Shown here piece after piece: positions 9,215-48,077 of a stretch of 64,000 nt of DNA. Numbering within the stretch: position 1 is the stretch's first letter; each line of letters opens with the position of its first letter. This stretch comes from Sneathiella limimaris (GTDB lineage: Bacteria > Pseudomonadota > Alphaproteobacteria > Sneathiellales > Sneathiellaceae), in contig NZ_JABBYJ010000001.1 in assembly GCF_012932565.1 (NCBI RefSeq), positions 744,001-808,000 on the forward strand, in the 5' to 3' direction. The notes beneath the pieces were generated by a model. The model did no database searches. It was not told the origin of the DNA and saw nothing but the letters and a program-made list of their open reading frames with translations. The position numbers and the translations under genes were made by a program.

Positions 9215-9365
9215 AAACGTCTCCAGTCTTTATCGCTTAAGTATAAAGTGATGCATTTCTGAGATCAATGAAGCTCTTATGAAGTGTTTGCAGTGCGTCG
9301 CAATATTTATGGGGGTCAGTCATCGATTGACGGGGATACAAGATTAGCTTTGTGACGGAGTGAGC

Positions 9366-10115
9366 TCAAGCTGGTTCAGGAAGGTTCCCATCGATCAAAA
9401 ATAGATCCCTTGGAAATTCCAGGAATTGGGTTCGATCCAGCTTGAGGACCACCCGGTTTTGTGTGGCCTCACAATAGCATTTGAGCTTTTGAACAAGCTT
9501 CTTTGAGATTAACCCTGCCGGCTCAAAAATGGCGACGTTCAAACCGGCCTTGGGGCAGCGCGCGGACTGATAGCTAATCCCCTGGATCTCGGCTGCTCTT
9601 AGCTCACTGCCGAGCGCCTGGGTTGGCTGATAGTTGGCTTTGTGCTGCAGGATGTCTGCATAGGCGGTAAAGGGTGCTTTAGTCAGATCGAGGCTGGGGT
9701 CACACTTGAACCGGGCCGAAAAGAGATCATAGCTTGCCCGGATCACCGGATTGGGGAACGCCTCCTCGACACCTTCTAAAAATACGAACCGGTAATAGGC
9801 CAGTTCAGCCGCCGCTGTTTCTTGTAAAAGAGATCCATAGAAGATGGACATCTCATGTCGGGCCCCAAAACGCGATCCCCATTTTAAGGGAGGATATCTG
9901 AATGGGGTGGCCAGTAAGTAATCATCTGGCGCCGTTTCTGGATAGGAAGGTTTGGTCGCGTCCAGCAACTCTTCAAGCCGCATTTGTTCATCGAGTGTAT
10001 CAACCAGCTCCATGGTGGCGATCTCTGACTGGTCCTCAACAACGCGCCAGAGGAGACCCTTGAGGGTCTCGGGTTGAGCCTGGCTCAGAACATCCTTCCA
10101 CTCAAATTTTCCCAC
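9366..10115 (-). CDS. RES-domain toxin (NAD+ phosphorylase/glycohydrolase family)
   Basis: 249 residues. The RES-domain landmarks are FRYPPLKWGSRFGARHEMSI (the R...R...Y/E region around residues 72-95), FYGSLLQETAAAELAYYRF, and a later IQGISYQSAR ... GLNVAIFEP segment where the conserved Ser and Arg-Glu pocket lies. RES toxins such as MbcT and the ParT/RES group deplete NAD+ and halt growth. The start overlaps the end of the upstream antitoxin by 14 bases, giving the usual antitoxin-then-toxin operon. It is longer than minimal RES toxins because of an N-terminal extension of about 50 residues. Confidence 0.85.
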   Translation of the reverse strand: MGKFEWKDVLSQAQPETLKGLLWRVVEDQSEIATMELVDTLDEQMRLEELLDATKPSYPETAPDDYLLATPFRYPPLKWGSRFGARHEMSIFYGSLLQETAAAELAYYRFVFLEGVEEAFPNPVIRASYDLFSARFKCDPSLDLTKAPFTAYADILQHKANYQPTQALGSELRAAEIQGISYQSARCPKAGLNVAIFEPAGLISKKLVQKLKCYCEATQNRVVLKLDRTQFLEFPRDLFLIDGNLPEPA

Positions 10116-10461
10116 GCATGCCGTCCAGGTAAACGAGGACGCTATTCAGTCCCTGCACGGACTTCACAAGCTCTCTTGGAACACCGTTCAGATGTTTATT
10201 ACGTGTTCCAAACCAGTGCTTCATGTTTTTCGGATCCCCACCGACCAGCGTGTGCAGGGCGCGATAGCAGCGGACAAAGAGAAGGGCCAGCTCCCCAGCC
10301 TTTGTCGCAGGGTCAATACCGCGATTGATGGCTGTCCGATCCCGTCCTATGATCTTGGCCAGCTCCTCAAGTGGGATCCCAAGATTGGAGGCGGCATTCT
10401 TGGCGGCTTTGGCCAGGATGGCTTTATCATTCACGTCTACGGTCTGCTGCTGTCGTGTCAT
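10102..10461 (-). CDS. Xre/MbcA/ParS-type antitoxin of the RES toxin
   Basis: About 119 residues from ATG 10459-10461 (MTRQQQTVDVNDKAILAKAA). An in-frame start at 10512 would add 17 residues but overlap the likely promoter. The HTH lies near residues 25-55 (LGIPLEELAKIIGRDRTAIN). The C-terminal toxin-binding half is visible as ALLFVRCYRALHTLVGGD, MKHWFGTRNKHLNGVPRELV and GLNSVLVYLDGMRG. It overlaps the RES gene by 14 bases, so the two are translationally linked. The HTH should repress the operon through sites upstream. Confidence 0.85.
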   Translation of the reverse strand: MTRQQQTVDVNDKAILAKAAKNAASNLGIPLEELAKIIGRDRTAINRGIDPATKAGELALLFVRCYRALHTLVGGDPKNMKHWFGTRNKHLNGVPRELVKSVQGLNSVLVYLDGMRGKI

Positions 10462-10485
10462 AACGCTGCTCTCACATAAAAAAGA

Positions 10486-10498
10486 TGTAATAGCTACA
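10486..10498. promoter_or_regulatory. Short palindrome upstream of the antitoxin-RES operon
   Basis: TGTAATAGCTACA has perfect TGTA/TACA ends, and a related TTGTAATTG lies about 25 bases further upstream. Its place just ahead of the antitoxin start suggests an autoregulatory operator. Confidence 0.35.
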
Positions 10499-10642
10499 AT
10501 ATTATCAGCCATGTTGTAATTGCGTCATTATATTTAGAGCATGTACCCGTTTCCGTCAAGGATTGGAGTTCTTCGGACATGGTGGGTAGACAGGCTGCTC
10601 TTCAAAAATTATCTATTTTGATTATTTGATTTTGGTCTAATC

Positions 10643-23622: not shown

Positions 23623-23875
23623 AATTAAACTCTTAACGAGTCCGTGGGTGAGACTTAGAAGTCTCTAATTATTTGAGCCAATAAGGCTGTCTCTAGAGCG
23701 AGCGTGGTGTGGAATGAATAGATTAAATTAAATACTTTCGTATTTACCTAAATCCGGAACTTGGAGTCTGAAATAAGTCATTCTAATTATCATATATAAA
23801 AAGCTCGTGTTTAAATGGACCCATCATTTTGTAATGTAATCAGAAATTTAAATGATAATTTTGAAAGGAATTGAT

Positions 23876-24055
23876 ATGAGTGATCAAAATGAATTAGCCA
23901 AAAAAAGCCAATCCATTTCGGCTTTAGAGGAAGCGGAAATGGCAAAATACGGCATAAAAAGAGTGCCAGTTGATTACTTCTTTTTTGGCAAGTATCGATA
24001 CTCAAATTTGAAAGATGCTTTGGCTCAGGCGAAACGAAATCAATCAAAACTTTGA
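23876..24055 (+). CDS. Small hypothetical protein
   Basis: 59 residues from ATG 23876, preceded by AAAGGA at good spacing (an upstream ATG at 23852 is weaker). The sequence MSDQNELAKKSQSISALEEA followed by YGIKRVPVDYFFFGKYRYSN and LKDALAQAKR is compact and soluble. The VPVDYF-x3-YRYxNLxDAxAQA pattern looks like a conserved small alphaproteobacterial family. No function is known. It is convergent with fumC. Confidence 0.7.
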   Translation: MSDQNELAKKSQSISALEEAEMAKYGIKRVPVDYFFFGKYRYSNLKDALAQAKRNQSKL

Positions 24056-24153
24056 TAGTTTGAAATTCTCTTTCAATCTACCGTTAGCTGGACAACGTAC
24101 CTATCAGGAAATTAATAACTGTCTTGGTAGACCTTTTCTGCTAGGCTTTGAAT

Positions 24154-25536
24154 TTAGATCATCTTACGGGGTTGCACCCAATCATCAAATTGTGCAGAGC
24201 TGACGAGTTTCAGCTCTAAGGCAGCCTCTTTCAAGGTTAGGTCTTCAACATAGGCTTTTGTGGCTATTTTGGCGGCTTTATCATAGCCAATATGCGGTGT
24301 TAGCGCGGTCACCAGCATAAGCGATTGTTCCATTAACTCCTTGATCCGCTTTTCATTGGCAACGATCCCTAAAACACAATTACGGGTGAAGCTGTCAATG
24401 GCATCTGACAATAGGCGAATAGACTGGAGCATATTGTATATGATGACAGGTTTGAAGGCGTTTAGCTCAAAATGGCCGTTCGAGCCAGCGATAGTGACCG
24501 TTACGTGATTTCCCATAACCTGGGCACAAACTTGTGTTATGGCTTCACATTGGGTTGGATTGATTTTCCCCGGCATAATTGAAGAGCCTGGTTCGTTTGC
24601 TGGAAGTGACAATTCTTGAAGGCCGCATCTTGGACCACTCGCGAGGAGGCGGATGTCATTCGCTATCTTCATGCAACTAACTGCAAGAGTATTGAGAACA
24701 CCAGAGAATTCTACTGCAACATCGTTTGCTGCGATCGCTTCATATTTATTGTTGGCTGATTTAAAGGGTAGACCTGTTGCCTTTGCAATATGAGTAGCGA
24801 AGAGCGCTGCAAATTCAGGAGAGGAATTGAGACCAGTACCGACAGCCGTTCCACCTTGTGCTAGCTCCAGAAGGCGCGGGAAAGAGCTTTTTATGCGGGC
24901 TAAACCTAGTTCAATTTGCCTTTCATATCCTGAAAACTCCTGCCCAAGAGTGATGGGGGTTGCGTCCTGTGTATGGGTTCTTCCGATTTTAATGATGTGG
25001 TCAAATTCAGTAACCTTCTTCGAAAGCGCTTCCTGAAAGTGGGTCAGAGCTGGAACAAGTAACTGTTGAACTTCTGTCGCAATTGCAATGGACATAACGG
25101 TTGGAAATGTATCGTTAGAACTTTGCCCAAGATTGACATGACCCAGTGGGTGAACCGGTTTCTTGCTTCCTAACTTTCCCCCGAGAAGCTCACTCGCCCG
25201 ATTGGCAATAACTTCATTCGCATTCATGTTGGTGTGGGTGCCGGAGCCTGTTTGCCAAACAACGAGCGGAAAATTGTCGTCTAACTTACCTTCTGCGATT
25301 TCCTGTGCGGCGGCAAGAATGGCATTGCTCAGACCTTCGTCCAACGTTCCCAATTCTAGATTCGTTTTTGCTGCCGCCATTTTCTGCAGGGCCAAAGCCC
25401 TAATGAAAGGCGTTGGTATTTTTTCTTCACCAATGCTGAAGTTTTCAAGTGATCGTTGGGTTTGAGCCCCCCAATATTTATCGGTGTGGACCTTGATTTT
25501 TCCCAAGGAATCACTTTCTATTCGTGTGCTCGACAT
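24154..25536 (-). CDS. fumC: Class II fumarate hydratase FumC
   Basis: 460 residues from ATG 25534-25536 ([16 protein letters not shown]), which matches the usual FumC length; the frame remains open upstream to 25638 but that extension is not FumC-like. Signatures: [60 protein letters not shown] and the lyase superfamily loop [17 protein letters not shown]. It interconverts fumarate and malate in the TCA cycle without an iron-sulfur cluster, and is therefore the oxidative-stress-resistant form. It may be an extra copy carried by the island; whether the host has another cannot be seen here. Confidence 0.95.
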
Positions 25537-26076
25537 ATTGGTATTCCTCTGCATTGGGCGTCTACCCGAACGCATAAGTGATGGACTACTATTTAGGTTT
25601 GTAACGACATGTTTCTTGTTTTGGTCTCTACTTTTCAAAATTCTAATAATATATTTAATAAATTTGAAATCGTTGTCCAGAATTCATCGAAAAGTAATAA
25701 TTATTAGTGGGAATAAATATTTTTTAATTATATTTAAAAGTCCGAATTTTAAATTAATAGTTTATTAATTTATTCAATTAATATGCCCTGATTATATTAT
25801 TTTTTTCCAAAAAAATATTTATTTTAAGGAAACTGTCTAGTGTCTGATAATCAAATTTCCTGATTACTTGAATAAAAAGCAAATAAAGATGGTTGCGTGC
25901 CCTCGCAATCAATCTCCCTAAGAAAATTGACGTTAATTCAGTTGTTTAATACTCGAAATTAAACCACACGCAACCAACGCTGTATGCATAGAGCTTATGC
26001 TGAGAGAACGATAGCAGCAAATAAAACTGTTTGTGGAAGATGGCAATCGGATAGAAAGTTGTTAATTTTGTCTGAC
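25537..26076. other. Gene-free AT-rich region upstream of fumC
   Basis: About 540 bases, very AT-rich between 25640 and 25840. The fumC promoter must lie at the left side; the right side is the 3' flank of azlD. I see no RNA gene, strong hairpin or supportable coding frame. Confidence 0.45.
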
Positions 26077-27695: not shown

Positions 27696-27776
27696 ATCGT
27701 GGTGTCAATCTTCAAATAGCAAGACGGACTTTACCATATTCTGGGGGAGTATTAGGAGCTCAGATCAACACTAATG

Positions 27777-27808
27777 AACCTTCCGATAAGTATGATTATC
27801 GGAAGGTT
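27777..27808. terminator. Strong hairpin, probable terminator
   Basis: AACCTTCCGATAA (27777-27789) and its exact complement TTATCGGAAGGTT (27796-27808) form a 13-bp perfect stem with a 6-base loop. CGTTTTATT follows on the plus strand. On the minus strand it directly follows the stop of the small frame at 27813-27971. Confidence 0.65.
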
Positions 27809-27812
27809 CGTT

Positions 27813-28009: not shown

Positions 28010-28846
28010 GTGGGTTTGCTTGCAGAGTATAGTTACGTTGAGTGCCTAGTGCGTATAGTTGAAAGAGTTGAACTAAATACACAAAACAAAGTTCAATCAC
28101 GAAATCTAAAGCCTGAGTCAGCACAATGGGTTTTGGAACAGACAACCAAAGCCGCCAGACAACAATTGACAGATTCAGAAGTACTTTCCCTGTTGTTGCT
28201 GGGTATTAGAGTAGAACTTCCCAAAGGTGTTACGTTCGGAAAAGGTAAGTGGCCTTTTTTCGACTCCAGTTCTGACAATTCATCAGAGTGTGGACAACTC
28301 GCTGCTGTTGACAGAACGCCCCCAGCCAATTCAATTTTTTCATTAAACTGGCAATATAACTTTCAACGTTTGGCTGACTTTAGGAGGCATTACGGAAATA
28401 TACCGATTCCGAAAACCGAGCCCTATGCAGATTTATGGGTCTGGCAAAAATATCAATATGTGAGATATCGCGAAGGGCGGCTTTCGGCATACGAGAAGAT
28501 GCAGTTAGAAAGCATTGAATTCTTCCCCACCAAAAAATTTGGGTCGTTTATCGATGAACGTACTCTTCCCAGTGTTACGCCGAAAGGTAAATCCTTAAAG
28601 TCGCATGTTTTTGATAAGTTTCGGTTGAGTGATCATTCAACCTGGATGGAGCGGTATCGTGAGCTACAAGAGTTTTCTGAGAAGCATTGGCACTTGAGAG
28701 TGCCACGGGAAGGTGTGAGCCGTGAACTTTCTCATTGGCTTCGTTATCAAAAAAGAAAAAAATATGAGAGTCGCTTGTATGAATTTTACGAAGCGCACCT
28801 TCGTTTATTAGGAGTTTCGTTTCCTGAAAAGGAAACCGCGATATGA
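28010..28846 (+). CDS. Protein with two helicase-associated (HA) domains, recombinase operon gene 1
   Basis: 278 residues; start GTG 28010 or TTG 28016, both just after GGAAAGGA. Two HA-type repeats are visible. The first is near residues 107-168 (WQYNFQRLADFRRHYGNIPI ... LWVWQKYQYVRYREGRLSAY). The second is near 212-272 (WMERYRELQEFSEKHWHLRV ... SHWLRYQKRKKYESRLYEF). HA domains occur in tandem at the C termini of some helicase-like proteins and probably bind nucleic acid; here they stand alone without a helicase. The stop overlaps the next start by four bases. It is the first gene of a tight operon ending in a giant tyrosine recombinase, so it is probably a DNA-binding accessory factor. Function inferred. 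Confidence 0.75.
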   Translation: MGLLAEYSYVECLVRIVERVELNTQNKVQSRNLKPESAQWVLEQTTKAARQQLTDSEVLSLLLLGIRVELPKGVTFGKGKWPFFDSSSDNSSECGQLAAVDRTPPANSIFSLNWQYNFQRLADFRRHYGNIPIPKTEPYADLWVWQKYQYVRYREGRLSAYEKMQLESIEFFPTKKFGSFIDERTLPSVTPKGKSLKSHVFDKFRLSDHSTWMERYRELQEFSEKHWHLRVPREGVSRELSHWLRYQKRKKYESRLYEFYEAHLRLLGVSFPEKETAI

Positions 28847-29385
28847 TTATTCATGGTGCCCGGGGAAAGCATGTTTCAAAAAAATTAGCCGGCAAAACAC
28901 TGCGACCTCACTCTGCTATAGAAAAGCCATACAAGATTTGGTGTTCTTTCAAACATGAGGTGAATGCTGAATTTTTGGACCCAGATTGGGCCCAAGAGTT
29001 TGTTTTAAGAACGCCGTTGCATATCATCTCTCCGAAAACACATAATCCAGCGACGAAAAATCAAATCACGTTTATCGGTGGATTTCGGACCGCAGAATTT
29101 ATTTACAATCGTAAAGTGACTGTTTGTAGAGCGATTGATTACAAAGATAACCCTCCTGACGACTTTGAGCTCTTTGGCTGGGGCGAATTATTCTTCACAT
29201 TGATGATGTTTCCTGAAAAACAGAGAAACCTAGCAGAAATCATTGATCTTATTCTAACTGATTTACCTCAAAAAGTCAGCATCGCCTATTTTGGGAAAAA
29301 GAAAATAACTCGCACGCATATCGCAAAAAAACTTACGGTTTCTCAGGATCGTCTTCGTGTTCGCAATCGGAATTCGGAGTACTGA
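28843..29385 (+). CDS. Unrecognised protein, recombinase operon gene 2
   Basis: 180 residues, basic, no membrane segment. I do not recognise the family. The middle stretch ITFIGGFRTAEFIYNRKVTV followed by CRAIDYKDNPPDD loosely recalls a ParB/Srx N-terminal domain. The C-terminal ITRTHIAKKLTVSQDRLRVR looks like a short DNA-binding helix-turn-helix. Its ATG overlaps the previous stop (ATGA) and its TGA directly abuts the ATG of the recombinase gene, so the three are coupled. It is most likely a partner of the recombinase. Confidence 0.65.
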   Translation: MIIHGARGKHVSKKLAGKTLRPHSAIEKPYKIWCSFKHEVNAEFLDPDWAQEFVLRTPLHIISPKTHNPATKNQITFIGGFRTAEFIYNRKVTVCRAIDYKDNPPDDFELFGWGELFFTLMMFPEKQRNLAEIIDLILTDLPQKVSIAYFGKKKITRTHIAKKLTVSQDRLRVRNRNSEY

Positions 29386-32300
29386 ATGGAATTTGAGGAT
29401 TTATTGAAGGCTCTAGGGATTGAAAGTATTTCTAGAGACATTAGAGATTATTCAGTCGAATTGCTTCAACACTATCTTTCTACTTTCCAAAAGCGGGACC
29501 CTGAACCAAATGGTCAGTTAATCAAGGGACTTGCTCACCGCATTCCTTCCGCGTCCGAAGACTTTAAGATTTCAAATGAAAATCCATTATGGAATTTCAT
29601 ATCGACTAACAAGAAAATTACGGAGCTGCCCTTTTGGGCAATGCTTTCATATACAGTGGGAGACGAAAGTAAATTCGCAAAACATGAGATCTTAAAAGCT
29701 CTTGTGACCGGAGCTATTTGTTCTTTTACGGTCAATACAATTAATGAAGAGAGTACCTCTAATAGCCCAGTCTCCAGGGCTTCTGACGCTATTCGCAGGT
29801 TGGATCAAAAAAAGTATCAGCAATTTTTTGCTGAACTTCCTCATCAGCCAAAGAATTTGACAGAACTATCTGATAAATTGGAGGAGCTCAGGCATACAGA
29901 AAACTTTGAGCGGCATGCCTCTATGCTTACGCCGTTACTGAGTTACGTTATAGAAGAAACCGCACCTAAAAAACGCAGTAGCTCTTCGGGTGGTAAATCT
30001 GAACGAAAGACTGGCTTTTTAGAATACCATCCAGTCTTAACTGAAGATTATCCTCATACTATTGAGACAATTCACACAACTGTTCCCATTAAAAATGTTT
30101 CGGATGTGGAACAGAAATCTGACGACTTACCCTTAAGAAGTTATCACACTATCGCCCCGCCAATAGAGCGAGAAAAAGCAAAATTGGCGAGTATTAAGAG
30201 ATTTCACAGCCAAAGTCTGACTCATTCCTTAGTTATGAAATCTGCATTACCGCCCTGTCATTTGGATATGGTGTCGATGGAAGAGATCGGTAGGTTTCAG
30301 AAGAGTTTATTCGACAGACTTTATTCCGGTAAAATTAGTCAGTACGAGTTGTCACTCATAGTGCTGGGACTTCTATGTCTCTACACAGGAAGAAATTTCG
30401 AAACAGTTTGTCGGATAATTGAAAAAGCGACTCCTGGCAGGAAAAAAACTGAGCATTCTGACCGGTTACTTTTTCGCACCGGCCTAAAGCCGCCTGCGCT
30501 CGAAATAAACCTTTCCTTGCCTGAACATAAACAGGTTCAACCATATTGCGACCTGTTGGATCATGAGCAGCGTAATTGTTATTGGTTACCATTACCGGAG
30601 TTTTTGCGGGACCCATTGAACCACCTTAGGCAAGAAAATGTTGCATTCCCTACACTAGAAGCTTTCAAAGATTTTATTGCAGAAATGGCTAAAGAGACGG
30701 GTACCAAGATTACGCCCGCAAGACTGGCGAATGTATTGTACCGGGTTGTTTTCCAAATCTGCGGACAACAAGTCATTTCTTCAGTAATCTGCGGAAATCT
30801 AGCGACCCAGTATGCACCCCAATATTACTGCACTTTAGGTTCAAATAAACTGATTGATATTTATCAGCGAGCGGTTTCAAAATTGTTATCTGCTACTGAG
30901 ACGCGCTCTCCCCACGCAAACATAGACAGATCCAAAGGGAAGAGAGTTGGCAGTCGTATTGAAATATCACCGGTAAAAATCTTTCAAGAAGTTCGAAACT
31001 TTCAGGTTAAATGTCAAAAAAAGGTGGATAACTACAAGTTGTCACCAATTGAACGTCACAATGACATAGCAGCTTACACCTATTTGCTCTTAAATATTGC
31101 CACAGCAATTCGTCCAGTTTCTGCGCCATTTGATTTCTGGGGTGACATTAATCTGAATGCATGCAGTGCCTGGATCTCCGATAAGGAAATAAAATTAGAG
31201 CTCGCGGCAAGGATAATATATTTTCCAGAAGTGGTAGCCCAACAGTTAGTTACCTATCGTATCCATTTGGAAAAACTGGAGGTTTATTGCAATCAAACTC
31301 AACATCGAGACTATTCACTAGTCGAGCGGGCACTAACAGGAGAAGGCCCTTTTCTCATATGGAGCAAAAATAATAGAATACACGCACTGCAACCTAAGTT
31401 CTTGGTGAACGGCTATGCCGGATCAATGTTTGCTAACCTACCTCTTAACTGGCCAAGGCATTTTTGGGCAACCCTTCTTCGAAACGAGCTACCAGAAGAC
31501 ATCGTTGATGCCCATTTAGGACATGGAAATTTTGAACTGGAACCAACAAACAGATGGTCAGGTCTCTCGCATGCTGATTTAAGACAAGCCTCCGATGTGA
31601 TTGGAAATCTGTTGGCGAAAAACGGGGTCAATAACTTAACAATAAAACGAGCTGATTATGCTGCTCCTATACAGGAAAAAAAGGCAAACCAACAACAGCT
31701 CGCAAGCGTGGGTTCTGGGAAGAGATCGGCGCAGAAACAAGTTCGACTGAAACAGCTAGATAAAAGAATTCAGGAAGAGTGGGATCAACTGCCTCTTTAT
31801 CGCACGTCTTCAACGGTTGACGAGAAAAATGAGGCTGTACGGAAGGCAATGGAAGCCTTGGTTGCTGATCATAATGAAATGTCATTGCGATTCCGGATTA
31901 AAAAAACTTTTTACAGAAATATTGTCAAACTAAACCAAAAGCGGGATGAAGCCGATCAGCTTTACATACCAGATCTTCCTGTGACGCTATCTCGGTCTGC
32001 TCCGTGGCGAACACGAAAATGGCATAGGTCTTCACAGTCAGTTATTAATTTTGTGACCTATTTACTGGATTTTCTCGAAAACCATAACTCAGAAGATTTT
32101 TCCCCAGAAATGTGGTTGGCGGCTTGCATTACCTCTGCAGCTACTTTCGGAGGTTTAAATGATAAAAAGGCTCTTAGCGCGCTAACAAAAGAACTTACGA
32201 CAGATGGGGTCTCGCTATCTTCCATTCGCCAAAGAAACTGGGGTTCGGACTTTCTTTCTGATCAGTATTTTATGGATTTGGTTTTTTCTGACCAATCTAT

Positions 32301-34833
32301 CCAAACTGGTATTCTGGACGGCAAGCCCGTTCTGACCCATAGATGGTTCTTAGATCCCGTGAGCCTCTTATTTTTAAGACGCTTCAATGATGCCAAGGGA
32401 GAGAAGGCTCTAAAACCAAAATCCAATGGCGCAATTGCCAACGCATTTTCGGAGCTCCAAAGTAAAATTGGTTATCCACCCCATCTAAGAATTCCTTATG
32501 AAGAAATTTGTCAATTTGGTAACGCCTATTTTGAGTATCTAAATCCAACGGACATTTCTATGGCCCTATCTGAGGTCATGACCGGGCATCAGATTTCGGT
32601 CTCTCTTCCTTTTTCACAATTTGAATTGTTGTTTAAGGAGCCCAAAGAAGCAGAATTTAGCTGGGATCTATCCAGTGTATCGTCAGTCAGTCAAAATTCT
32701 AGTCAGCGGTCTCGACAAACGTTGGGAAGAACCGAGTACCGTGAGCTTCATACTTTACTAAGAAGTAAAACGGCTACAGGAGATAAAGTGTCCCGGGAGC
32801 AAGCAAGTAAGGACTTGAAGTCACTTGTTGCTGACGATTGGTGTGAATCTGTGAAGATTCTCAGAGACTGGGCAATTGATCTACTGGATAACGATAATTT
32901 ACAAGTTTCTACGGTGAAAGCCTACCTTTCCACAATAGGGCCTGCTATTCGAGATTTATTTTATGATTTAGACCTGCAAGAAATGGAGGGAGAGGACTTT
33001 TACGATTGCTATCAACAGGTTTTGAAACTGGCAAAATCAAAGAAGTTGAAAAGCGACCTTGCATGGTACCTCCAACGCTTTCATGATTTCTGTGTTAGAA
33101 TGTACGATTTTCCTAGATTTGAGGAAAGTTTAGGATCTGCAAAGAAACACCCCTTGGTCGTTCGAGCCGGGTACCTACCAAATCATCATTATTTTGCTTG
33201 CATGAAAGCGCTCATGCAGCAATTTACCCTACCCTCATATAAGGTTCAAGCCTTACAGATTTTGTTTATTCTCGCGTATCGAACAGGCTTGCGAATAGGA
33301 GAGATTCTAAAAATAAGGTTGGAAGATGTTTTCGTTGGGGAAACGTGTTGGATATTTGTTACCAATAACCGGTATGGAAGCAACAAAACACGATCTTCGA
33401 ACAGAAAGATACCTATTTCAGTCTTGCTGACGTCAGAAGAGATGGGGTTATTCAGGGACTTCTATTCTCTCAAATCGGCTGCAACAACAATGAAGCAGGC
33501 TTTGCTGTTTAGCGATACACAGCAGTCAACTGTCCCCTGGAATGCTTTAGAAACTTCGAGGCAATTTACATCCTTGATGCGTCATATAACTGGCAATAAC
33601 GATATGGTTTTCCACCACCTGAGACACACAGCGCTCTCAAATCTGCAATTTGTGATAGAGCGCGAATGGTCGATTTCCAGCCATTTTATGGGAGTGAGCG
33701 AAGGGCAGGTGGCAGATATTTTTGAAGCTATCTGTGGCCGAAAAGATGAGAAACTAAGAGTTTATTGGCACTAGGCAAAACTTGCTGGTCACGAAAGCCC
33801 AGATATGACATTTCGTCACTATCTGCATTTCTCGGACCTTATTATTGGTCTGAAGTTACGACGTTCAAGTGGCCCGCTCAGTAGAGAATTAATTCGCCAG
33901 ATAGCCGGGTTGAGCAAAAGCAAAATGACTCGATTAATAAAGGGTGCTGCTGCAGAAAAAGACCTGACTGCTGTCTCTGCCGAAAGAGTAGTGAACAGTT
34001 TGCAATCTGAATTAGAGAAGCTAGTTAAAGACCATTATGAGCCAGCCTTGCAAACACCAATAACTCAGTCGCTGGATGATTTTTGTCGCCAGAAATCTAT
34101 CGATCACAAAGTGCTGTGTCTTCTACTTCAAAGACGCAATGAGGGGTATTCAAAAGAACGCCTTGCTAGGGATTTTAATATTTCTCTTATCGATTTGGAT
34201 CGTTTTATAGCCAATAGTTGTGCTATCACCGAAATAGAAACGAGAGAGGCCAATGCTCGTTTAGGGTTTAAGACTTCAGAGGAAGAGAAATCCTGTAGTC
34301 TTTTTATTCCCACTGAACCTTCTAGCCGCGTTCTTGCCCTACAGGCAGCTAAGAACATTCAGGATTTGGAGGCTCAGATTGCGGAAGAAGGCGTTGAAGC
34401 TTTTAAACCGTATTTGCGGCACTATTTGACCCATTGTTTAAAAGATAAATCCTATACGCGTTTTACAAATTTTGACGAGTTAAATGAGTTTATATGCAAG
34501 TTTGAAGGGGTTATTCCGCGAACCAGATGGTTAGTGGAAATATCTACTTCCAAAACATCTCTTCGAAAATATAAAGAAAATTCGCTTTCCAAAGTGACGT
34601 ACCATTTCGTTGAGAATCCAGGATCTCGCTCAGAAAGCTTTCGGCTGTATCTTATGCATCCGCATATGCAAGAGAAACTTGGTGCCTGGAAGGTGACCGA
34701 ACGGAAGAGTGCTAATTATCAAAAATATTCTTCTTCAGAACTGCGATATGTCTTTCCCTTGATGGTAATCAAGTATTTTACAAGTGAGGACTGGCTTCAG
34801 GTGCATTCAATTGATGGGCAAGAGGTTGAGTAG
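29386..34833 (+). pseudogene. Giant double tyrosine recombinase interrupted by an in-frame amber codon
   Basis: One frame of 1815 sense codons broken only by TAG at 33772-33774 (codon 1463). Two catalytic-like domains are seen. The first has R576 (ATAIRPVSAPFDFW) and NWPRHFWATLL at 688-698, LGH at 711-713 and W724 where Tyr is expected; Asn replaces the first His, so it looks inactive. The second is canonical: R1303 (YRTGLRIGEILKIRLEDV) and HHLRH at 1410-1414. Its LAGH (H1469) and nucleophile Y1479 (TFRHYLHF) lie just after the amber codon. As written, the first product (29386-33774, 1462 aa) lacks the nucleophile and a restart at ATG 33805 would give 342 aa without LAGH. It is therefore a nonsense-disrupted or recoded gene. 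It is far larger than ordinary integrases. Confidence 0.8.
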
Positions 34834-34867
34834 GGTGTTGATCGGACTGGAGCGTAAATTTCCAAAA

Positions 34868-34964
34868 ATTACTCTATAGGGTAATTCTTATATTATTACT
34901 CTCTAGCGTAATTTTAATAATTTACTTTGTAGCGTAAATTTAAATATGTTACGCTATGGCGTAA
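34868..34964. promoter_or_regulatory. Four phased palindromic operators upstream of hipBA-1
   Basis: Four related 18-bp near-palindromes at 34868-34885, 34895-34912, 34921-34938 and 34947-34964 share the pattern TTAC-C-T--AG-GTAA (for example ATTACTCTATAGGGTAAT). Start-to-start spacing is 27, 26 and 26 bp. They end 16 bases before hipB and must overlap the promoter. The layout mirrors the multi-operator HipB repressor region of E. coli hipBA. Confidence 0.75.
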
Positions 34965-34980
34965 ATAAAGGAAATTCGCT

Positions 34981-35235
34981 ATGAAATTGACAGCTCGAAA
35001 TGCAAAGCAGTTGGGGGATGCTATAAGGCGTGCACGCAAAGCCGCCGGGTTGACGCAAAAAGATATCAGTACGCGGACTAACTTACGCATCGCGACCATA
35101 TCAACGTTAGAAAATGGAGATACTGGCACACAAATTAAAACAATCTTTCGTGTGTTGGAAGCACTGGAGCTTGAGTTTGACCTTCTACCACGTCAAAAGC
35201 CTGCATCTGTTCAACTAGAAGACTTGATGCAATGA
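34981..35235 (+). CDS. hipB: HipB-type antitoxin/repressor (module 1)
   Basis: 84 residues, an almost pure Cro/C1 HTH (residues about 8-65): LGDAIRRARKAAGLTQKDIS, then LRIATISTLENGDTGTQIKT. It binds the four operators upstream and inhibits the HipA kinase encoded next. The stop overlaps the hipA start by four bases (ATGA). Confidence 0.9.
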   Translation: MKLTARNAKQLGDAIRRARKAAGLTQKDISTRTNLRIATISTLENGDTGTQIKTIFRVLEALELEFDLLPRQKPASVQLEDLMQ

Positions 35236-36533
35236 AACAACTCTCTGTTTTCTTAAACGGTCGCCATGTCGGAAGCATATCCCTCGCCCGTTCCGGCGCG
35301 ATAAGCTTCCAATATACCCAAAGCTGGCTTGACCTAGAGGGGGCGTTTCCAATTTCTTTGTCCCTGCCGTTAAATGAGAAGCCTCATCAAGGTGGACCGG
35401 TTATTGCGTATCTGGAAAATCTTCTTCCTGACAATCAAGCCATCCGTGAACGAGTTGCTGCGAAAGTGAATGCCTCAGGTTTGGATGCCTTTAGTATGCT
35501 GGAGAAAATTGGTCGTGATTGTGTCGGGGCTTTACAATTTCTTTCAACCAACAGCGACATTACGGCAAGATCAGCATTAGAAGGTCAGCCCGTCAATGAA
35601 GCAGAAATTGCACGGACGCTTCGTGACCTTAAGACTGCTCCACTGGGAATGAGGGACGATGATGATTTCCGTATTTCTATTGCTGGCGCCCAAGAAAAAA
35701 CGGCCTTTCTAAAACGAAATGATCAATGGGAACGCCCCCGAGGTATGACACCCACTACGCATATTTTCAAAACGCAGTTAGGACAATTACCAAATGGAAT
35801 TGATTTGAAGGACAGCGTGGAAAACGAATTTTTCTGCATGAAATTTTGTCAGCATATGGGGCTGAATATTGCCAATGTGGAAATTCATCAGTTTGAAGAT
35901 ATCAAAGCTCTAGTCGTTGAACGGTTTGATCGTCGCTGGATAGCGCCAGACAAGCTGATCCGTATTCCCCAGGAGGACTTTTGCCAAGCATTAGCCGTTC
36001 CCCCAAGTCTGAAGTATCAATCTGATGGTGGGCCCAATATCGCGCAATGCATGGATCTATTAAAATCCAGCAATTCACCAACCGAAGATCAAACAGCTTT
36101 TATGAAAGCACAAATCCTGTTTTGGCTTCTGGGAGCAACGGATGGGCATGCAAAGAATTTCAGTATCTCCTTGCAGCCTGACGGTTTTAGGATGACGCCG
36201 TTTTACGATATTTTGTCGGCACAAAAAGCCCTGGATGATGGTCAAATTCGGCGCAAGCAAATGAAACTCGCAATGTTTGTGGGCGATAATAAAAAATATC
36301 GCATGGAACAGGTTGCGGTAAGACATTACCTGCAAACAGCGAAAGCGGCTAACTTCGGTACAGCAATTGTTGAAGATGTTTTAAAAGCCGTACAACGGGC
36401 TATCGATGCAGCAATAGAGCGCACTTTACAATCACTCCCACAAGAGTTTCCAGAAGCGCTTGTAGAAAGCTTAGTCAACGGCATTCGGAGTCGGCAGCGG
36501 ATTCTCAAAATGGGAATTGAGGGCAACGGATAA
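35232..36533 (+). CDS. hipA: HipA-family serine/threonine kinase toxin (module 1)
   Basis: 433 residues, the size of classical HipA. The N-terminal region (MKQLSVFLNGRHVGSISLA, YLENLLPDNQAIRERVAAK) and the kinase core are intact: GAQEKTAFLKRNDQWERPRG (ATP-loop region), LLGATDGHAKNFSISLQPDG (catalytic Asp-Gly-His-x-Lys-Asn) and MTPFYDILSAQ (metal-binding Asp). HipA phosphorylates glutamyl-tRNA synthetase in E. coli and causes growth arrest and persistence. The target here is assumed by homology. It is translationally coupled to hipB. Confidence 0.92.
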   Translation: MKQLSVFLNGRHVGSISLARSGAISFQYTQSWLDLEGAFPISLSLPLNEKPHQGGPVIAYLENLLPDNQAIRERVAAKVNASGLDAFSMLEKIGRDCVGALQFLSTNSDITARSALEGQPVNEAEIARTLRDLKTAPLGMRDDDDFRISIAGAQEKTAFLKRNDQWERPRGMTPTTHIFKTQLGQLPNGIDLKDSVENEFFCMKFCQHMGLNIANVEIHQFEDIKALVVERFDRRWIAPDKLIRIPQEDFCQALAVPPSLKYQSDGGPNIAQCMDLLKSSNSPTEDQTAFMKAQILFWLLGATDGHAKNFSISLQPDGFRMTPFYDILSAQKALDDGQIRRKQMKLAMFVGDNKKYRMEQVAVRHYLQTAKAANFGTAIVEDVLKAVQRAIDAAIERTLQSLPQEFPEALVESLVNGIRSRQRILKMGIEGNG

Positions 36534-36800: not shown

Positions 36801-37136
36801 ATGAAAACCCAAGCCAATAGCACGTTACCAAGAGGGGCACGACAAGCCCTAAAGAAACTGGGAGAGGATATTGCCGTTGCTCGGAAGAAGCGGCGGATTT
36901 CCACCGTTTCCATGGCTGAACGCGCGTTTATTAGCCGGAATACGCTTTATAAGCTCGAGAAAGGTGACCCCTCGGTTTCTATGGGAGTGTACGCAACGGT
37001 GCTTGCCATTTTGGGGCTTGCCAACAATTTGGGGCAGGTTGCTGATCGGCGCGAGGATGCTTTGGGGCTAGATCTGGATGAGGAAAGCTTGCCGAAGAAG
37101 ATCCACTCCAAGCGGCAGCAGAGGCCTAAGTCATGA
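36801..37136 (+). CDS. hipB: HipB-type antitoxin/repressor (module 2)
   Basis: 111 residues. The Cro/C1 HTH spans about 22-75 (DIAVARKKRRISTVSMAERA, FISRNTLYKLEKGDPSVSMG). The C terminus is a charged tail (LDLDEESLPKKIHSKRQQRP). It overlaps the following hipA by four bases. It is not a close copy of module 1 HipB, so the two modules are independent acquisitions rather than a recent duplication. Confidence 0.88.
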   Translation: MKTQANSTLPRGARQALKKLGEDIAVARKKRRISTVSMAERAFISRNTLYKLEKGDPSVSMGVYATVLAILGLANNLGQVADRREDALGLDLDEESLPKKIHSKRQQRPKS

Positions 37137-38347
37137 CAGACAGTATCGAAGTCTATATCGACCATGCCGGGGAGACCCACCGGGTTGGTATATGCCGCTA
37201 TGTGGCCAAAGGTCGGCGGCAAAGTTCTGTATTCGAATATGATGAGAACTGGTTGAGTAAACCAGATGCCTTTGCGATTGATCCGGCGAACCTGCCTTTA
37301 GACCAGCAACAGATCTATACCAATTCCGAAAAATCGGGTTTGCCTGGCGCGCTGCGAGATACCGCTCCAGATCGGTGGGGACAACAGCTGATTAAACGTG
37401 CCTTTCGCAAATCCGGAGAGATGAGAACTCTCTCAGAAATTGACTTTCTACTGGCCATCAATGACTTCACCCGGATTGGAGCCCTTCGCTACAAACGAGA
37501 AGGGGAAGAGAGTTTCGATCATGATATAGGTAACTATCGTGTTCCCCCTCTTATTCAGCTTCCGGCACTTATAAATGCCGTAGACGCCGTTGCAAATAAT
37601 ACCGAAACAGCTGAGGATCTGAAGTTGCTACTAAATGAAGGATCTCCTCTAGGTGGCGCTCGGCCTAAATCTGCAGTGATGGATAAGGACGGTACTCTGG
37701 CAATCGCTAAGTTTCCAAAGCCAGATGATGACCGCAGCATTCCCCACGGGGAAGTCTTGGCAATGACACTCGCGAAGAAAGCAGGGATAAACGTGGCTGA
37801 CGCACGCCTTCAGGATGTCGCGGGCCGCCCCGTGTGCCTTATCACCCGATTTGATCGGAAGGAAGGACAACGAGTGCCTTTTCTGTCCGCAATGAGCTTG
37901 CTGGGGATGAATGATGGGGATGAAGCGACCTACACAGATATCGCTGAATGTATCCGTATGTACTCAAGCGCCCCGACAGAAGATTTACACGAACTATGGC
38001 GACGCATTGTTTTCAATGTGATGATTGGTAATTTGGACGACCATCTGCGCAATCATGGATTTCTCTACGATCATGACAATAAATGGCGACTATCTCCAGC
38101 ATATGATCTGAACCCTGTACCGATTGAGGAGAAGGCGCGAGAACTAACAACCTGGATATCTGAAGAAGGACCAGAAGCTGATTTGGATATAGCTCGCAGA
38201 ACAGCACCTTATTTTGCCCTCAAACAAGATCGCGCGGAGGAAATCATTGAGGAAGTCACAACTGCACTAAACGAGTGGCAAAATTTAGCGCGGCAGTTAG
38301 GAATGAGTGCGGCTGATATATCAGTTTACGCGACGGCTTTTATTTAA
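37133..38347 (+). CDS. hipA: HipA-family kinase toxin (module 2)
   Basis: 404 residues of a different HipA branch from module 1. Kinase motifs: GSPLGGARPKSAVMDKDGTL (Gly-rich loop), AIAKFPKPDD (ATP-binding Lys), FNVMIGNLDDHLRNHGFLYD (catalytic DDH-x2-N) and WRLSPAYDLNPVP (metal-binding Asp). Its target is unknown. It is coupled to hipB-2 by a four-base overlap and is followed by the better-preserved DUF262 gene on the opposite strand. Confidence 0.9.
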   Translation: MTDSIEVYIDHAGETHRVGICRYVAKGRRQSSVFEYDENWLSKPDAFAIDPANLPLDQQQIYTNSEKSGLPGALRDTAPDRWGQQLIKRAFRKSGEMRTLSEIDFLLAINDFTRIGALRYKREGEESFDHDIGNYRVPPLIQLPALINAVDAVANNTETAEDLKLLLNEGSPLGGARPKSAVMDKDGTLAIAKFPKPDDDRSIPHGEVLAMTLAKKAGINVADARLQDVAGRPVCLITRFDRKEGQRVPFLSAMSLLGMNDGDEATYTDIAECIRMYSSAPTEDLHELWRRIVFNVMIGNLDDHLRNHGFLYDHDNKWRLSPAYDLNPVPIEEKARELTTWISEEGPEADLDIARRTAPYFALKQDRAEEIIEEVTTALNEWQNLARQLGMSAADISVYATAFI

Positions 38348-39105: not shown

Positions 39106-39527
39106 GATTCATCCCAATACTTTTTTTATTTGCAAGTCTGTGACTGCTTTATTTCATATATTTATAACTATTGAGAGAACTGTTCGTCAAATAATACTAA
39201 TTTTTTTAAAAACTCGAAAATTTGAGCTCTTGAACTAGCGTAATCAGTAACAAATGAACTGCCCAGAGTCAGGGGCGAAAGTTCAAAAGTGTGATATCTA
39301 CGATTTATTGGGGTGCCACATAGGTGCCATGAGTGATTTGCTCACAACATGGAAAAAAACTAAGTCATTGAAAAATATGGCGCACCCGACACGATTCGAA
39401 CGTGTGACCTCTGCCTTCGGAGTTTCCATATCTGCACGGTTTTTCGCAGTTTTCTGAGTGTTTTTGTGGAATTTGAAAGCGTCAGTTGACGTCGTTTGAC
39501 GGGGGATACATGGACTTAACGTGGACG
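39106..39527. other. Gene-free junction between the large island and the small integrative element
   Basis: This region holds the tRNA-Arg fragment (39373-39422), AT-rich sequence to its left and a short spacer to the integrase stop on its right. No supportable gene. It should contain the recombination core and probably arm-binding sites for the integrase. Confidence 0.55.
39373..39422 (-). repeat. Displaced tRNA-Arg 3' end: internal attachment-site copy
   Basis: These 50 bases are identical to 47996-48045, the 3' half of tRNA-Arg(CCG) with five flanking bases. The match ends in the anticodon loop (CTTCGGAG). It also matches the left copy at 5685-5729. The integrase gene starts its 3' end 106 bases away, so this is the distal end of the 39.4-48.0 kb element and also the proximal end of the larger island to its left. 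Confidence 0.9.
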
Positions 39528-40550
39528 TCATTTGAAAGCCCTCATTGCATCTGAAAGATAGTCTGCATGGTGGTGGCTATAGAGAGCGGTAGTGCGCTCG
39601 TTGCTATGGCCTAGCCATCCTGCAATTTGAAAAAGAGGAACACCGGCTTGCGCCATCCACGTACCGGAAGTATGCCGCAGCGTGTGTGGCGTCACGTTTT
39701 CCAAACCAGCGTTACGGGCAGCGGTGGCAAAGGATTTTTTTATGTCTCCTAATCGCTCGCCATCTTTATGCACAACATAACCTAAGTCGTGACCTCTTGA
39801 CCGGGCATGTTTCAGTGCAACCATAAGCCGCCCGGGAATGGGAAGAACAGGGCGTCTTTTGGAAGTTTGCATTCGACCAGGAGGATTTAAGTCTATACGC
39901 CTTGCCTCGAGATTTACTTGAGGCCAACGCAAAGAGAGGATCGCTTCTTTCCGAGCGCCAGTATATAGGCCGAGCATTATGAACAAAGGAAGGTACAAAC
40001 GAACTTTTGGTTCAGATTTTGCTGCCCATAGAAGGGCTGCAGCCTCCTTTTTTGTCAACCAACGGTCTTTTCCTGCTGGCTTAGGGGGTAGCCAGACAAA
40101 CGGTGATCGAGTTACACGTCCCATCTTATGATCGTGGTTGATCGCAGCTCGAAGGACACCTAGTTCTCTCCGAACCGTGCTATCTGATTTCTGTCGAAAG
40201 GTTTGGTATGCTTCACATGTTTGCCGGGTAATATCGGAAACTTTATTATTTCCCCAATATTTCAAGAGAGCATCCACGGCATACCCTATGCGTTCAGGAC
40301 AAGTCGTGTTGACGGCATGCTCATCCACATAGTTTTCAATGGCATCAACAATCATGTACTTCTCCGGAGGGAGAGGTCCGAAATGTTGTCGAATTGATTT
40401 AATAAATTTGCCGAGTTCTTCTTGAGCTTCGAACTGATCCGCTGTGCCCGTGCTTCGCTCGCGGGTCTGTCCACGTTCTGACCATCGGATGTAATATTTT
40501 TTGCGTTTCTTGAGGAATACGAGGTATGGGCCTCTGTTTGGTCTTGGCAT
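39528..40550 (-). CDS. int: Tyrosine-type site-specific integrase
   Basis: 340 residues. The N terminus carries an arm-binding-like region (MPRPNRGPYLVFLKKRKKYY), followed by a SAM-like core-binding domain and the catalytic domain. Catalytic residues are all visible: Arg in MLGLYTGARKEAILSLRWPQ, His-x-x-Arg in TPHTLRHTSGTWMAQAG, WLGH in IAGWLGHSNE and the nucleophile Tyr in RTTALYSHHHAD. Its place next to a tRNA-Arg fragment fits integration into the tRNA 3' end. It is the likely integrase of the small element at 39.4-48.0 kb, and perhaps of the larger island too. Confidence 0.95.
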   Translation of the reverse strand: MPRPNRGPYLVFLKKRKKYYIRWSERGQTRERSTGTADQFEAQEELGKFIKSIRQHFGPLPPEKYMIVDAIENYVDEHAVNTTCPERIGYAVDALLKYWGNNKVSDITRQTCEAYQTFRQKSDSTVRRELGVLRAAINHDHKMGRVTRSPFVWLPPKPAGKDRWLTKKEAAALLWAAKSEPKVRLYLPLFIMLGLYTGARKEAILSLRWPQVNLEARRIDLNPPGRMQTSKRRPVLPIPGRLMVALKHARSRGHDLGYVVHKDGERLGDIKKSFATAARNAGLENVTPHTLRHTSGTWMAQAGVPLFQIAGWLGHSNERTTALYSHHHADYLSDAMRAFK

Positions 40551-46068: not shown

Positions 46069-47616
46069 TTATTGAAAAATATAGTTTGAGGGGTGTTCCC
46101 CGGGAGTTTCGGAGAACTTCCCCGAGTTGGCGTTTAACTGGAAATGTTCAGATTGATGGTTTGAGTGATAATTGTTGTGGTCTGTCTCTCTTCCGTTGAG
46201 AGGGTCTAGGACAGTTGTCGTTGTTGTGTGCTTCATAGAAGCGCTCTCGCGCCAAAGGCGAAGGGCTTGCGTTTGCACTTTGTCTAATTGCCTCTTGCGG
46301 ATGAGGTCGTTTAAATTCCCGGAGAAATTGCGTACAATTAGACAGGGTTCATAGCGTCGGGTGAATTTCGGCATGGGGTTAGTGATCGCCACAACAATAT
46401 CTTGCGTCTCTCCACTTTCATTCCGCTCTTGCTTGGCTCCAGTGCGTGCCTTTGGTTGAACGTTCCATCCCCATCTTCCGTTCTGATCTGGAGCTTTAAC
46501 CAGCTTCAGGCGGTCCTCACGGAGCTTTCTGCGAAATTCCCGGATAGGTCCAAGTGGATGAAAGAACTTTAGTCGGCAAGTCTGTAGGAATAATTCTTTG
46601 AGCTCGCCATTTGTAAGGAGGTCGAACTCACAAGGTTTAAAAACGTATTTAACACACTCAGCTGGGTTCCGAATTCTCTCGTCGTGGGCGTACCCCTTAT
46701 CAAAACGAGATTTTATAAACTCCATTGTCTCTGCCCACTTTTTGGGACCAAGACGCTTCGTGGAGCGCATTAAGACATGGGAATGCATGTTTAGGTGGGG
46801 GTCATTATCACTGGCGCGTTTGATCGTATTTTCAACATTGTAGTAAACAAACTGAATTCCCCGTTCTTTCAATACGGGGTCGGCACTTATCTTGGAGATT
46901 TTCCGGGTAAAGGCCTTGTGTTCGTTACGATACGAAGAAAGCGGTACCCATCCGTTGCTTATCACTAGCATGCGGAGATGTCTTCGATTGCTGTTATCCA
47001 TGAAGTATCGAACGTGCCTAAGCATGTCATGCACATTGCGGGCTTGCATGGATGGGATAATGTTAGAGTTTCGGAAGTGGTTGGCCTTTTCCACTTCACC
47101 AGAACAGAGACCGATGATTGTCGTAGAATTATCTTGTTGATAAGCTGGTATACCTTCGCTTTCTAGCCGTCGTGCAATATCGAATGATTGTTCTCTTAAT
47201 TGCCTTTCTCGGCTTTTTGCTTCGATAAACTTTTCTCTGTTTAATTCCTTCCCGACAGTTTTCTCCCATAGCTCTGCTGTAGATAGAACACCGGTACCCT
47301 TTGGAAGTTGACTGCCGTTTAATTTTATTTCTCCGGTAAGTACATCATAGACTTCACGTGCCGTAGACACTGCCAGTATATCATTAGTACCAAAGCGAGG
47401 GTGTTCCCCCTCGCGCTCCCCCCGCTCGCCGCGTGGCAGGGGTGCAGGAAGGTTTTTCCTGCACCCCAATACAGAAGCTTGTAGTGTTGCCGCCGGGTCA
47501 AGGGACTGCCGCACCAATTCTGAGCTGCGCTCAGAACCGTGCAGTCCCTTGACCCGGACGTCTGTTGAGAAAGATGGAGATGGTCGCTGCTGGGGCGTTG
47601 GGTGTCTCGAAATCAT
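46069..47616 (-). CDS. rep: Rolling-circle replication initiator (HUH endonuclease family)
   Basis: 515 residues, start coupled by four-base overlap to the small gene upstream. Residues about 190-340 hold the Rep core: MLVISNGWVPLSSYRNEHK, the metal-binding HUH-type motif HLNMHSHVLM (His 277 and 279) and the catalytic Tyr motif ECVKYVFKP (Tyr324, Lys327). These nick a plus origin and join to the DNA 5' end, driving rolling-circle replication of the excised element. The N-terminal 90 residues are low complexity and encoded by a cluster of strong hairpins (47395-47557) that probably includes the replication origin. It resembles plasmid and filamentous-phage-type Reps. Confidence 0.8.
   Translation of the reverse strand: MISRHPTPQQRPSPSFSTDVRVKGLHGSERSSELVRQSLDPAATLQASVLGCRKNLPAPLPRGERGEREGEHPRFGTNDILAVSTAREVYDVLTGEIKLNGSQLPKGTGVLSTAELWEKTVGKELNREKFIEAKSRERQLREQSFDIARRLESEGIPAYQQDNSTTIIGLCSGEVEKANHFRNSNIIPSMQARNVHDMLRHVRYFMDNSNRRHLRMLVISNGWVPLSSYRNEHKAFTRKISKISADPVLKERGIQFVYYNVENTIKRASDNDPHLNMHSHVLMRSTKRLGPKKWAETMEFIKSRFDKGYAHDERIRNPAECVKYVFKPCEFDLLTNGELKELFLQTCRLKFFHPLGPIREFRRKLREDRLKLVKAPDQNGRWGWNVQPKARTGAKQERNESGETQDIVVAITNPMPKFTRRYEPCLIVRNFSGNLNDLIRKRQLDKVQTQALRLWRESASMKHTTTTTVLDPLNGRETDHNNYHSNHQSEHFQLNANSGKFSETPGEHPSNYIFQ
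47395..47557. repeat. Cluster of three hairpins inside the 5' end of rep: candidate replication origin
   Basis: Hairpin one pairs GCGAGGG (47395-47401) with CCCTCGC (47408-47414). Hairpin two pairs GGGGTGCAGGAA (47439-47450) with TTCCTGCACCCC (47456-47467), 12 bp perfect. Hairpin three is nested: an outer 17-bp perfect stem CCGGGTCAAGGGACTGC (47493-47509) with its complement at 47541-47557, and an inner 8-bp stem TTCTGAGC/GCTCAGAA (47518-47525, 47529-47536) with a TGC loop. Such structures suit a double-strand origin (nick site) or single-strand origin for the adjacent Rep. Confidence 0.7.

Positions 47617-48000: not shown

Positions 48001-48077
<77 letters not shown>

Follow-up and report, generated by a model that had tools for sequence, protein, structure and literature searches.

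The DNA examined here, hereafter the window, is a 64,000-nucleotide stretch of Sneathiella limimaris (contig NZ_JABBYJ010000001.1, positions 744,001 to 808,000). It carries a giant tyrosine recombinase frame interrupted by one in-frame TAG, which lies just ahead of the last catalytic boxes. Did this codon arise by a recent nonsense mutation, is it an error of the assembly, is it read through, or does it mark the natural end of a shorter protein? A single recent nonsense mutation in the giant recombinase of a mobile-element-type cluster is, in our judgement, the probable answer. The searches for literature on this stop or, by name, on this recombinase family, which were narrow and covered titles and the starts of abstracts, found none.

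The interrupted catalytic domain

The frame at 29386-34833 (+ strand) comprises 1,816 codons on translation, namely 1,814 sense codons, the internal TAG and the terminal stop at 34831-34833. Its sole internal stop is the TAG at 33772-33774 (codon 1463), and the 1,814 sense codons contain no further stop or frameshift, as an earlier sequence-only reading of this DNA had stated. The features of this region are as follows.

29386-33774, + strand: giant recombinase ORF as translated, 1,462 aa up to the TAG (translation, Pfam)
33166-33867, + strand: D3, tyrosine recombinase catalytic domain, residues ~1261-1494, with the TAG inside it (Pfam, predicted structure, VIA-align)
33772-33774, + strand: in-frame TAG, codon 1463, within a predicted helix before the Gly-His box (translation, model, sense codon in 85 of 85 loci)
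33775-34833, + strand: downstream frame of 352 codons encoding LAGH, Tyr1479 (33820-33822) and the extension at the C-terminus (E 1.9e-118 to family profile positions 694-1010)
Inside 33775-34833, + strand: ATG at 33805, opening a 342-aa ORF (ORF translation)

The translated product of 1,462 aa matches Phage_integrase (Pfam PF00589) at residues 1290-1420 (E 1.1e-12) and, of the C-terminal catalytic domain, retains R1303, K1334 and the HHLRH box. The TAG strips from it the Gly-His box (1468-1469) and the nucleophile Tyr1479, together with a C-terminal extension of about 330 residues. The residues encoded directly 3' of the TAG read AKLAGHESPDMTFRHYLHF and lead into this long extension; the earlier placement of R1303 and HHLRH before the stop, and of the LAGH and Tyr boxes after it, was thus correct. 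The two parts on either side of the TAG are one gene, because the family profile, which was built from six rows including the window, runs to position 692 in the first ORF and restarts at position 694 in the second.

Residues 1122-1815 were modelled with AlphaFold2 (45 sequences, mean pLDDT 84, pTM 0.57); in this model, the TAG residue (342 in model numbering) lies in the helix 335-345, ahead of Gly-His at 347-348 and Tyr at 358. According to VIA-align, the D3 model resembles XerH, XerA, Cre and the Tn1549 integrase, with Z 16.9 and rmsd 3.0 over 185 for 5jjv_B, and Z 17.0 but rmsd 15.9 over 263 for 5hxy_A. The R, K, G, H and Y of the catalytic domain are invariant across the 45 rows of alignment A5. 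The encoded frame has the fold of a tyrosine recombinase as well as its R, K, H-x-x-R, Gly-His and Tyr, the last boxes lying past the stop. It is established for this enzyme family that a tyrosine recombinase domain without Gly-His and Tyr is incapable of cleavage. The truncated D3 cannot cut DNA, since both the Gly-His box and Tyr1479 are absent from the product. Compared with Xer, Cre and lambda-type recombinases, the encoded protein shares the fold of the C-terminal domain and its R, K, H, R, H and Y residues. Unlike them, it has two further modelled recombinase folds upstream, the C-terminal extension, and a Tyr placed past a stop. Ordinary tyrosine recombinases are about six times shorter.

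The set of homologous loci comprised 85 members, namely the best 80 of 107 relatives on genome contigs, the locus L003, three plasmid regions (from 222 plasmid records) and a second genome of the same genus; six relatives were listed among viral contigs. The set includes many near-copies; filtering to below 80% identity leaves 50 of the 83 rows over 700 aa besides the window. The codon aligned to the TAG, which the sequence-only reading had proposed to check in homologues, is a sense codon in an open frame in 85 of 85 loci (the best 80 of 107 contig relatives plus five) and a conserved TAG in none. The residue there is Leu in 43 loci, Ile in 37, Val in three, Met in one and Thr in one, and is therefore hydrophobic in 84 of 85, rather than the Gln, Trp or Tyr of the codons CAG, TGG and TAT that had been suggested as examples. 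The catalytic His and Tyr are kept in 86 of 86 rows (the window and the 85 loci). The nearest relative, L003, belongs to another species of the same genus (genome G015) and has an uninterrupted frame of 1,839 aa, which is 32% identical to the window protein and is preceded by the same two small genes. None of the 85 loci ends at the TAG codon, and none has a separate second gene starting near the equivalent of ATG 33805, an arrangement that the sequence-only reading had named as contrary to its own interpretation. A conserved recoding site and a natural split of the gene at the TAG were both rejected on these counts (stop at this column in 0/85 loci, end at this codon in 0/85). Shortened frames occur on the short contigs of L061 (832 aa), L087 (903 aa) and L104 (885 aa), while L078 has only a 549-aa frame; L078 and L087 are without the first half.

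Two recombinase-like domains in the first half

The sequence-only reading recognized the giant recombinase with a TAG before LAGH and Tyr, and this part of it stands, but it missed two recombinase-fold domains upstream.

30259-30894, + strand: D1, degenerate recombinase-fold domain, residues ~292-503, with Tyr481 (30826-30828) (VIA-align, conservation)
30952-31629, + strand: D2, recombinase-fold domain, residues ~523-748, with R576, K600, N688, R691 and H713 (VIA-align, conservation)

Both were located in a model of residues 250-800 (38 sequences, pLDDT 83, pTM 0.80). D1 (about 43-254 in the model) matches 5vfz with Z 12.1 and rmsd 3.9 over 162, and 3vcf_B with Z 11.6 and rmsd 3.4 over 146, although VIA-align cautions against scores at about this level (Z near 12) for helical domains. 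D2 (274-499 in the model) matches 4a8e with Z 14.5 and rmsd 2.6 over 169. In the Foldseek search of the same model, no match reached E ≤0.001, the best being XerA at 0.0035, and the sequence profile of this half found no solved structure below E 0.019. Profile-profile comparison gave nothing firm for the region ahead of the catalytic domain, with probabilities of 27.5 for D2 against the catalytic domain (weak), 16.0 for D1 against the catalytic domain and 11.1 for D1 against D2; the homology of D1 therefore rests on predicted structure.

The conservation of these two domains, counted with the window included and near-copies kept in, is uneven. In D1, the Tyr at position 481 is kept by 82 of 82 rows; it sits 11 residues past a Gly (kept in 33/38), a spacing equal to that of Gly1468 and Tyr1479. 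Only 28/79 rows have Arg at box I of this domain. D2 keeps R576 and K600 in 83/83 rows and N688, R691 and H713 in 84/84, N688 replacing His. Its nucleophile column is occupied by Tyr in 31 of 83 rows, Phe in 23, Met in 15, His in 11 and Trp in three, the window having Trp. Such selective retention of the D1 Tyr and the D2 pocket would not be expected of a dead protein. Conceivably, the D2 pocket is served by the Tyr of D1, either from the same chain (in cis) or from another (in trans); against this, the D2 column itself holds a Tyr in 31 of 83 rows. Flp is a recombinase whose Tyr is supplied in trans. More speculatively, the first half, rather than being a dead recombinase, may be one active site divided between two domains, D1 having lost the pocket and kept only the Tyr, and D2 having kept the Arg-Lys-Arg-His pocket and given up its own Tyr; the giant would then have two sites, of which the TAG would silence only the second, perhaps conditionally via RNA. 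We regard this as a tentative proposal that is less likely to be right than wrong.

All loci but L078 and L087 (83 of 85) have the first half. In 73 of them it stands as an ORF of its own, 741-926 aa long, and in the window, L003 and three Idiomarinaceae it is fused to the second half. The remaining first halves are shortened (L051, L102, L104 and L121, all at contig starts, as well as L107 and L088). In L088 (Acinetobacter indicus), the first half is broken into two frames with about 1 kb between them, suggestive of an insertion. The Idiomarinaceae loci (L053, L063 and L064) have the intact fused giant form, with frames of 1,926-1,985 aa. In a FastTree phylogeny, the five fused rows fall on one side with a support of 22 and long branches; the fused form might stem from one or two fusion events.

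The gene cluster and its probable island setting

Two small genes precede the giant recombinase.

28010-28846, + strand: 278-aa protein with two helicase-associated (HA) domains, first gene of the cluster (Pfam PF03457, E 3.6e-16)
28843-29385, + strand: 180-aa small protein (iterated profile search)

Among the 85 loci, the HA-domain gene has a relative in L003 only (phmmer against locus ORFs, E 0.01). The 180-aa protein has no Pfam match at E 1 and no NCBIfam match at E 0.1, and its relatives, found by iterated profile, adjoin the first half in 53 of 77 loci, a count that takes in the window and is limited to loci whose upstream sequence exceeds 600 nt. The recombinase family occurs in three of 385 sampled genomes of the host class (E 1e-40), all three of the same genus, and its named relatives in genome contigs are mostly Gammaproteobacteria (among the best 80 of 107). 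Because of this distribution, lateral transfer of the family is likely.

Two partial end copies of tRNA-Arg(CCG) flank the cluster at 5676-5729 and 39360-39422, the tRNA gene itself lying at 48001-48077, and the L003 cluster likewise sits between a partial copy of tRNA-Arg(CCG) and the tRNA gene. The region looks like an island hotspot that is common to other species of the genus. Several of these species match the same tRNA-Arg(CCG) copies, as an array of islands with direct copies, and a classical integrase (39528-40550, - strand) adjoins the copy that ends at 39422. A 17-nt inverted repeat with one mismatch and a 6-bp spacer lies at 27773-27812, about 200 nt ahead of the first cluster gene. 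No further exact copy of its 13-nt core exists in the genome, and the five one-mismatch matches are at control level; the repeat is at most a candidate marker of the element ends.

Other genes of the window were recorded alongside. Toxin-antitoxin-like genes lie beside the recombinase, among them two HipA genes at 35232-36533 and 37133-38347, with an HTH gene (36801-37136) before the second, and operator-like repeated sequences are found at 34850-34970. Xre/RES toxin-antitoxin-like genes are located at 8804-10512. The ORF at 38584-39105 matches part of the GmrSD_N domain only and is probably the remnant of a restriction gene. The fumC region (23752-25733) is 92% identical to a region of genome G015, which is there on a different contig from the tRNA-Arg array, and has possibly been moved or duplicated in one of the two genomes.

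Three known recombinase systems resemble this cluster in part. Strand-biased circularizing integrative elements (SE) carry intA, tfp, intB and srap (PMC10214605, PMC9345347). Their operon opens with the gene of an ordinary RHRY recombinase, intA, after which come tfp and intB, and their ends are imperfect inverted repeats with a 6-bp spacer site (PMC10214605). The window cluster is like SE in having a recombinase-fold protein without the full motif beside a recombinase with a very long N-terminus, and the hosts overlap (Vibrio, Shewanella, Aeromonas and Pseudomonas relatives). Unlike SE as described there, it starts with the HA-domain and 180-aa genes and has no intA, in a comparison of gene order and not of sequence; in the Pfam search, the two genes upstream of the giant had no integrase match where SE would begin with intA-tfp-intB. 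The GInt elements (ginABCD) consist of three integrase genes and ginD (PMC5385486). GInt and the window cluster are alike in that an operon at a genomic island encodes several proteins with recombinase folds, of which one is degenerate. In gene order they differ: after a small gene, the window has a single fused giant, which most relatives carry as two genes. By Pfam, in place of three consecutive integrase genes and ginD, the window has two non-integrase genes, the giant and then a HipA gene.

The Gamma-mobile-trio (GMT; Mahata et al. 2024) is reportedly a gene trio with recombinases on mobile elements, and would be alike in this respect. GmtY (NCBIfam NF040693, 441 positions) has no match in the window proteins at E 0.1, nor in L003, L006, L007 and L008 at E 1; in the genome as a whole, the model gives only three sub-cut-off matches, which lie outside the window.

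Origin and meaning of the stop

The genome offers no visible support for a decoding route for UAG. Release factor 1 is encoded, above the curated cut-off. No CUA anticodon (ARAGORN) was seen among 41 RF00005 tRNA matches, in a search that scored 150 of 174 candidates and could miss an odd tRNA. For PylS, the best PylS_Cterm score is 25.4 bits against a cut-off of 178.15. Among 29 genes picked from the window, 28 of them supported by a Pfam match, four terminate in TAG; an alternative genetic code was rejected on this use of TAG and on the presence of release factor 1.

The RNA after the stop gives a different signal.

33775-33874, + strand: stably folding RNA (z -4.24); ATG 33805 and the Tyr codon fall within its inverted repeat at about 33801-33827

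This stretch, the first 100 nt past the TAG, was picked because a stimulator would act there, and none of 200 shuffles was as stable as the native RNA. The stop-spanning window (33712-33811) has z 0.00 and a stretch of L003 has z -0.01. The fold has the lowest z of 76 distinct loci at the equivalent place (window included), the 75 others having a mean of -0.31, a standard deviation of 1.11 and a lowest value of -3.14. Only one of 1,000 synonymous resamplings of the same peptide was as stable. Among 1,956 coding windows from 35 ORFs of the 64-kb stretch, it ranks 8th, and z ≤ -4 is reached by eight, four of which are inside one ORF. In a scan of the giant gene with step 25 and fewer shuffles, none of 214 windows reached -4, and the window from 33761 ranked second. 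As evidence for read-through, the fold is suggestive, at roughly 1 in 200, and not decisive. Re-initiation at ATG 33805 is less likely because the predicted hairpin covers this codon. An attachment site within the gene, another reading of the inverted repeat at 33801-33827, is not supported, since a genome search allowing up to three mismatches found its 22-nt core only once. Elsewhere in the window, the first 240 nt of a 515-aa ORF (46069-47616, - strand), which has no Pfam match at E 0.01, fold extremely stably, with z down to -7.5.

As to the age of the lesion, a random substitution in the giant gene creates a stop with a probability of about 0.05, and the absence of further lesions caps the neutral divergence since loss at about 0.5-0.75% (95%), a bound that rests on indel rates assumed from general knowledge. 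Of the columns conserved at ≥90% among non-redundant relatives, the window keeps 20/20 before the stop and 5/5 after it, and of those at ≥70%, it keeps 46/50 and 9/11, respectively. In relative-rate counts with five outgroups, the window branch does not show significantly more change. After the stop, the window has fewer unique changes than L003 with five of five outgroups, the chi-square being 8.0 with one outgroup and 0.6-2.0 with the other four. Because there is no second lesion, the conserved columns are kept and the rate excess is not significant, any loss would be recent, or the part after the stop would still be maintained. The sequence-only reading had likewise described the frame as otherwise undamaged and any loss as recent; continued maintenance is the alternative added here, and the conserved residues after the stop, judged from a single sequence whose identity to its nearest relative is 31-32%, would also fit a part still in use.

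The sequence-only reading had offered a recent nonsense mutation, a sequencing error or read-through. The first is the best supported, with no stop at this column in 85 relatives, no second lesion and conserved residues on both sides, and the intact sister gene of L003 in the same genus adds to it; the RNA fold, unmatched among the 75 other distinct loci, weighs against it. Programmed or tolerated read-through, in which near-cognate decoding of UAG aided by the 3' RNA would yield a little full-length recombinase and so limit excision, appears unlikely. It would account for the stable RNA after the stop and for the undamaged downstream frame with its conserved residues, and it shares with programmed stop-codon read-through the frame open on both sides and a stable, putatively stimulatory RNA 3' of the stop. 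Unlike such systems, however, the stop is not conserved (0/85, with no close relative among the loci), and a UAG-decoding tRNA and PylS were not found in a genome that encodes release factor 1. The residues usually inserted at UAG are Gln, Tyr and Lys, a poor fit for a column that is hydrophobic in relatives; furthermore, the window spanning the stop shows no fold, and one window elsewhere in the gene scored lower than that at the stop. An error of sequencing or assembly, with a sense codon in the real genome, is quite unlikely. It would fit the finding of just one lesion in 5.4 kb of open frame, with flanks that look fully maintained, but the assembly is near-complete (three contigs, completeness 100, contamination 0.01), and a lone substitution is not the commonest kind of long-read error.

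Two further explanations give the products of the interrupted gene a function. The truncated protein might itself work, D1 and D2 acting either as a recombinase unit whose active site is partitioned or as an essential accessory, so that the stop would remove the second site and leave a regulator or a one-site enzyme. The separate first-half ORF in 73 of 85 relatives, the retained Tyr of D1 and pocket of D2, and the match of both domains to the recombinase catalytic fold in VIA-align speak for it. On the other hand, 85 of 85 relatives have the second unit with its His and Tyr, there is no sign of the first half acting alone, Foldseek gave this half no match at E ≤0.001 (best XerA, 0.0035), and in L088 the first half is itself in two pieces; we consider this explanation very unlikely. 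Hardly credible is a natural two-subunit enzyme, in which a second polypeptide from ATG 33805, 30 nt past the stop, would give the Tyr in trans. The 342-aa frame opened by this ATG does contain the Tyr, but it is without the Gly-His box, its ATG lies in the stem of the predicted hairpin, and no homologue is split here.

If the codon arose by a recent nonsense mutation, as we favor, the mutation would have put the TAG at codon 1463, in the helix ahead of the Gly-His box of D3. Translation would halt there and give the 1,462-aa product, whose D3 would be without DNA cutting. The loss would then be recent, the cluster would be part of a mobile element, and recombination via D3 would no longer be possible. 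Should the first half be enzymatically active by itself, truncation need not equal full loss.

The stop itself is ordinary, being most likely the mark of a recent pseudogene of a mobile-element recombinase. The more interesting lead, at the level of the family, is the putatively partitioned active site of the first half. This family is predicted to stack three recombinase folds, as two genes or fused, with the Tyr and the pocket apparently in different domains. If true, this partition would be a distinct way of controlling strand cleavage.
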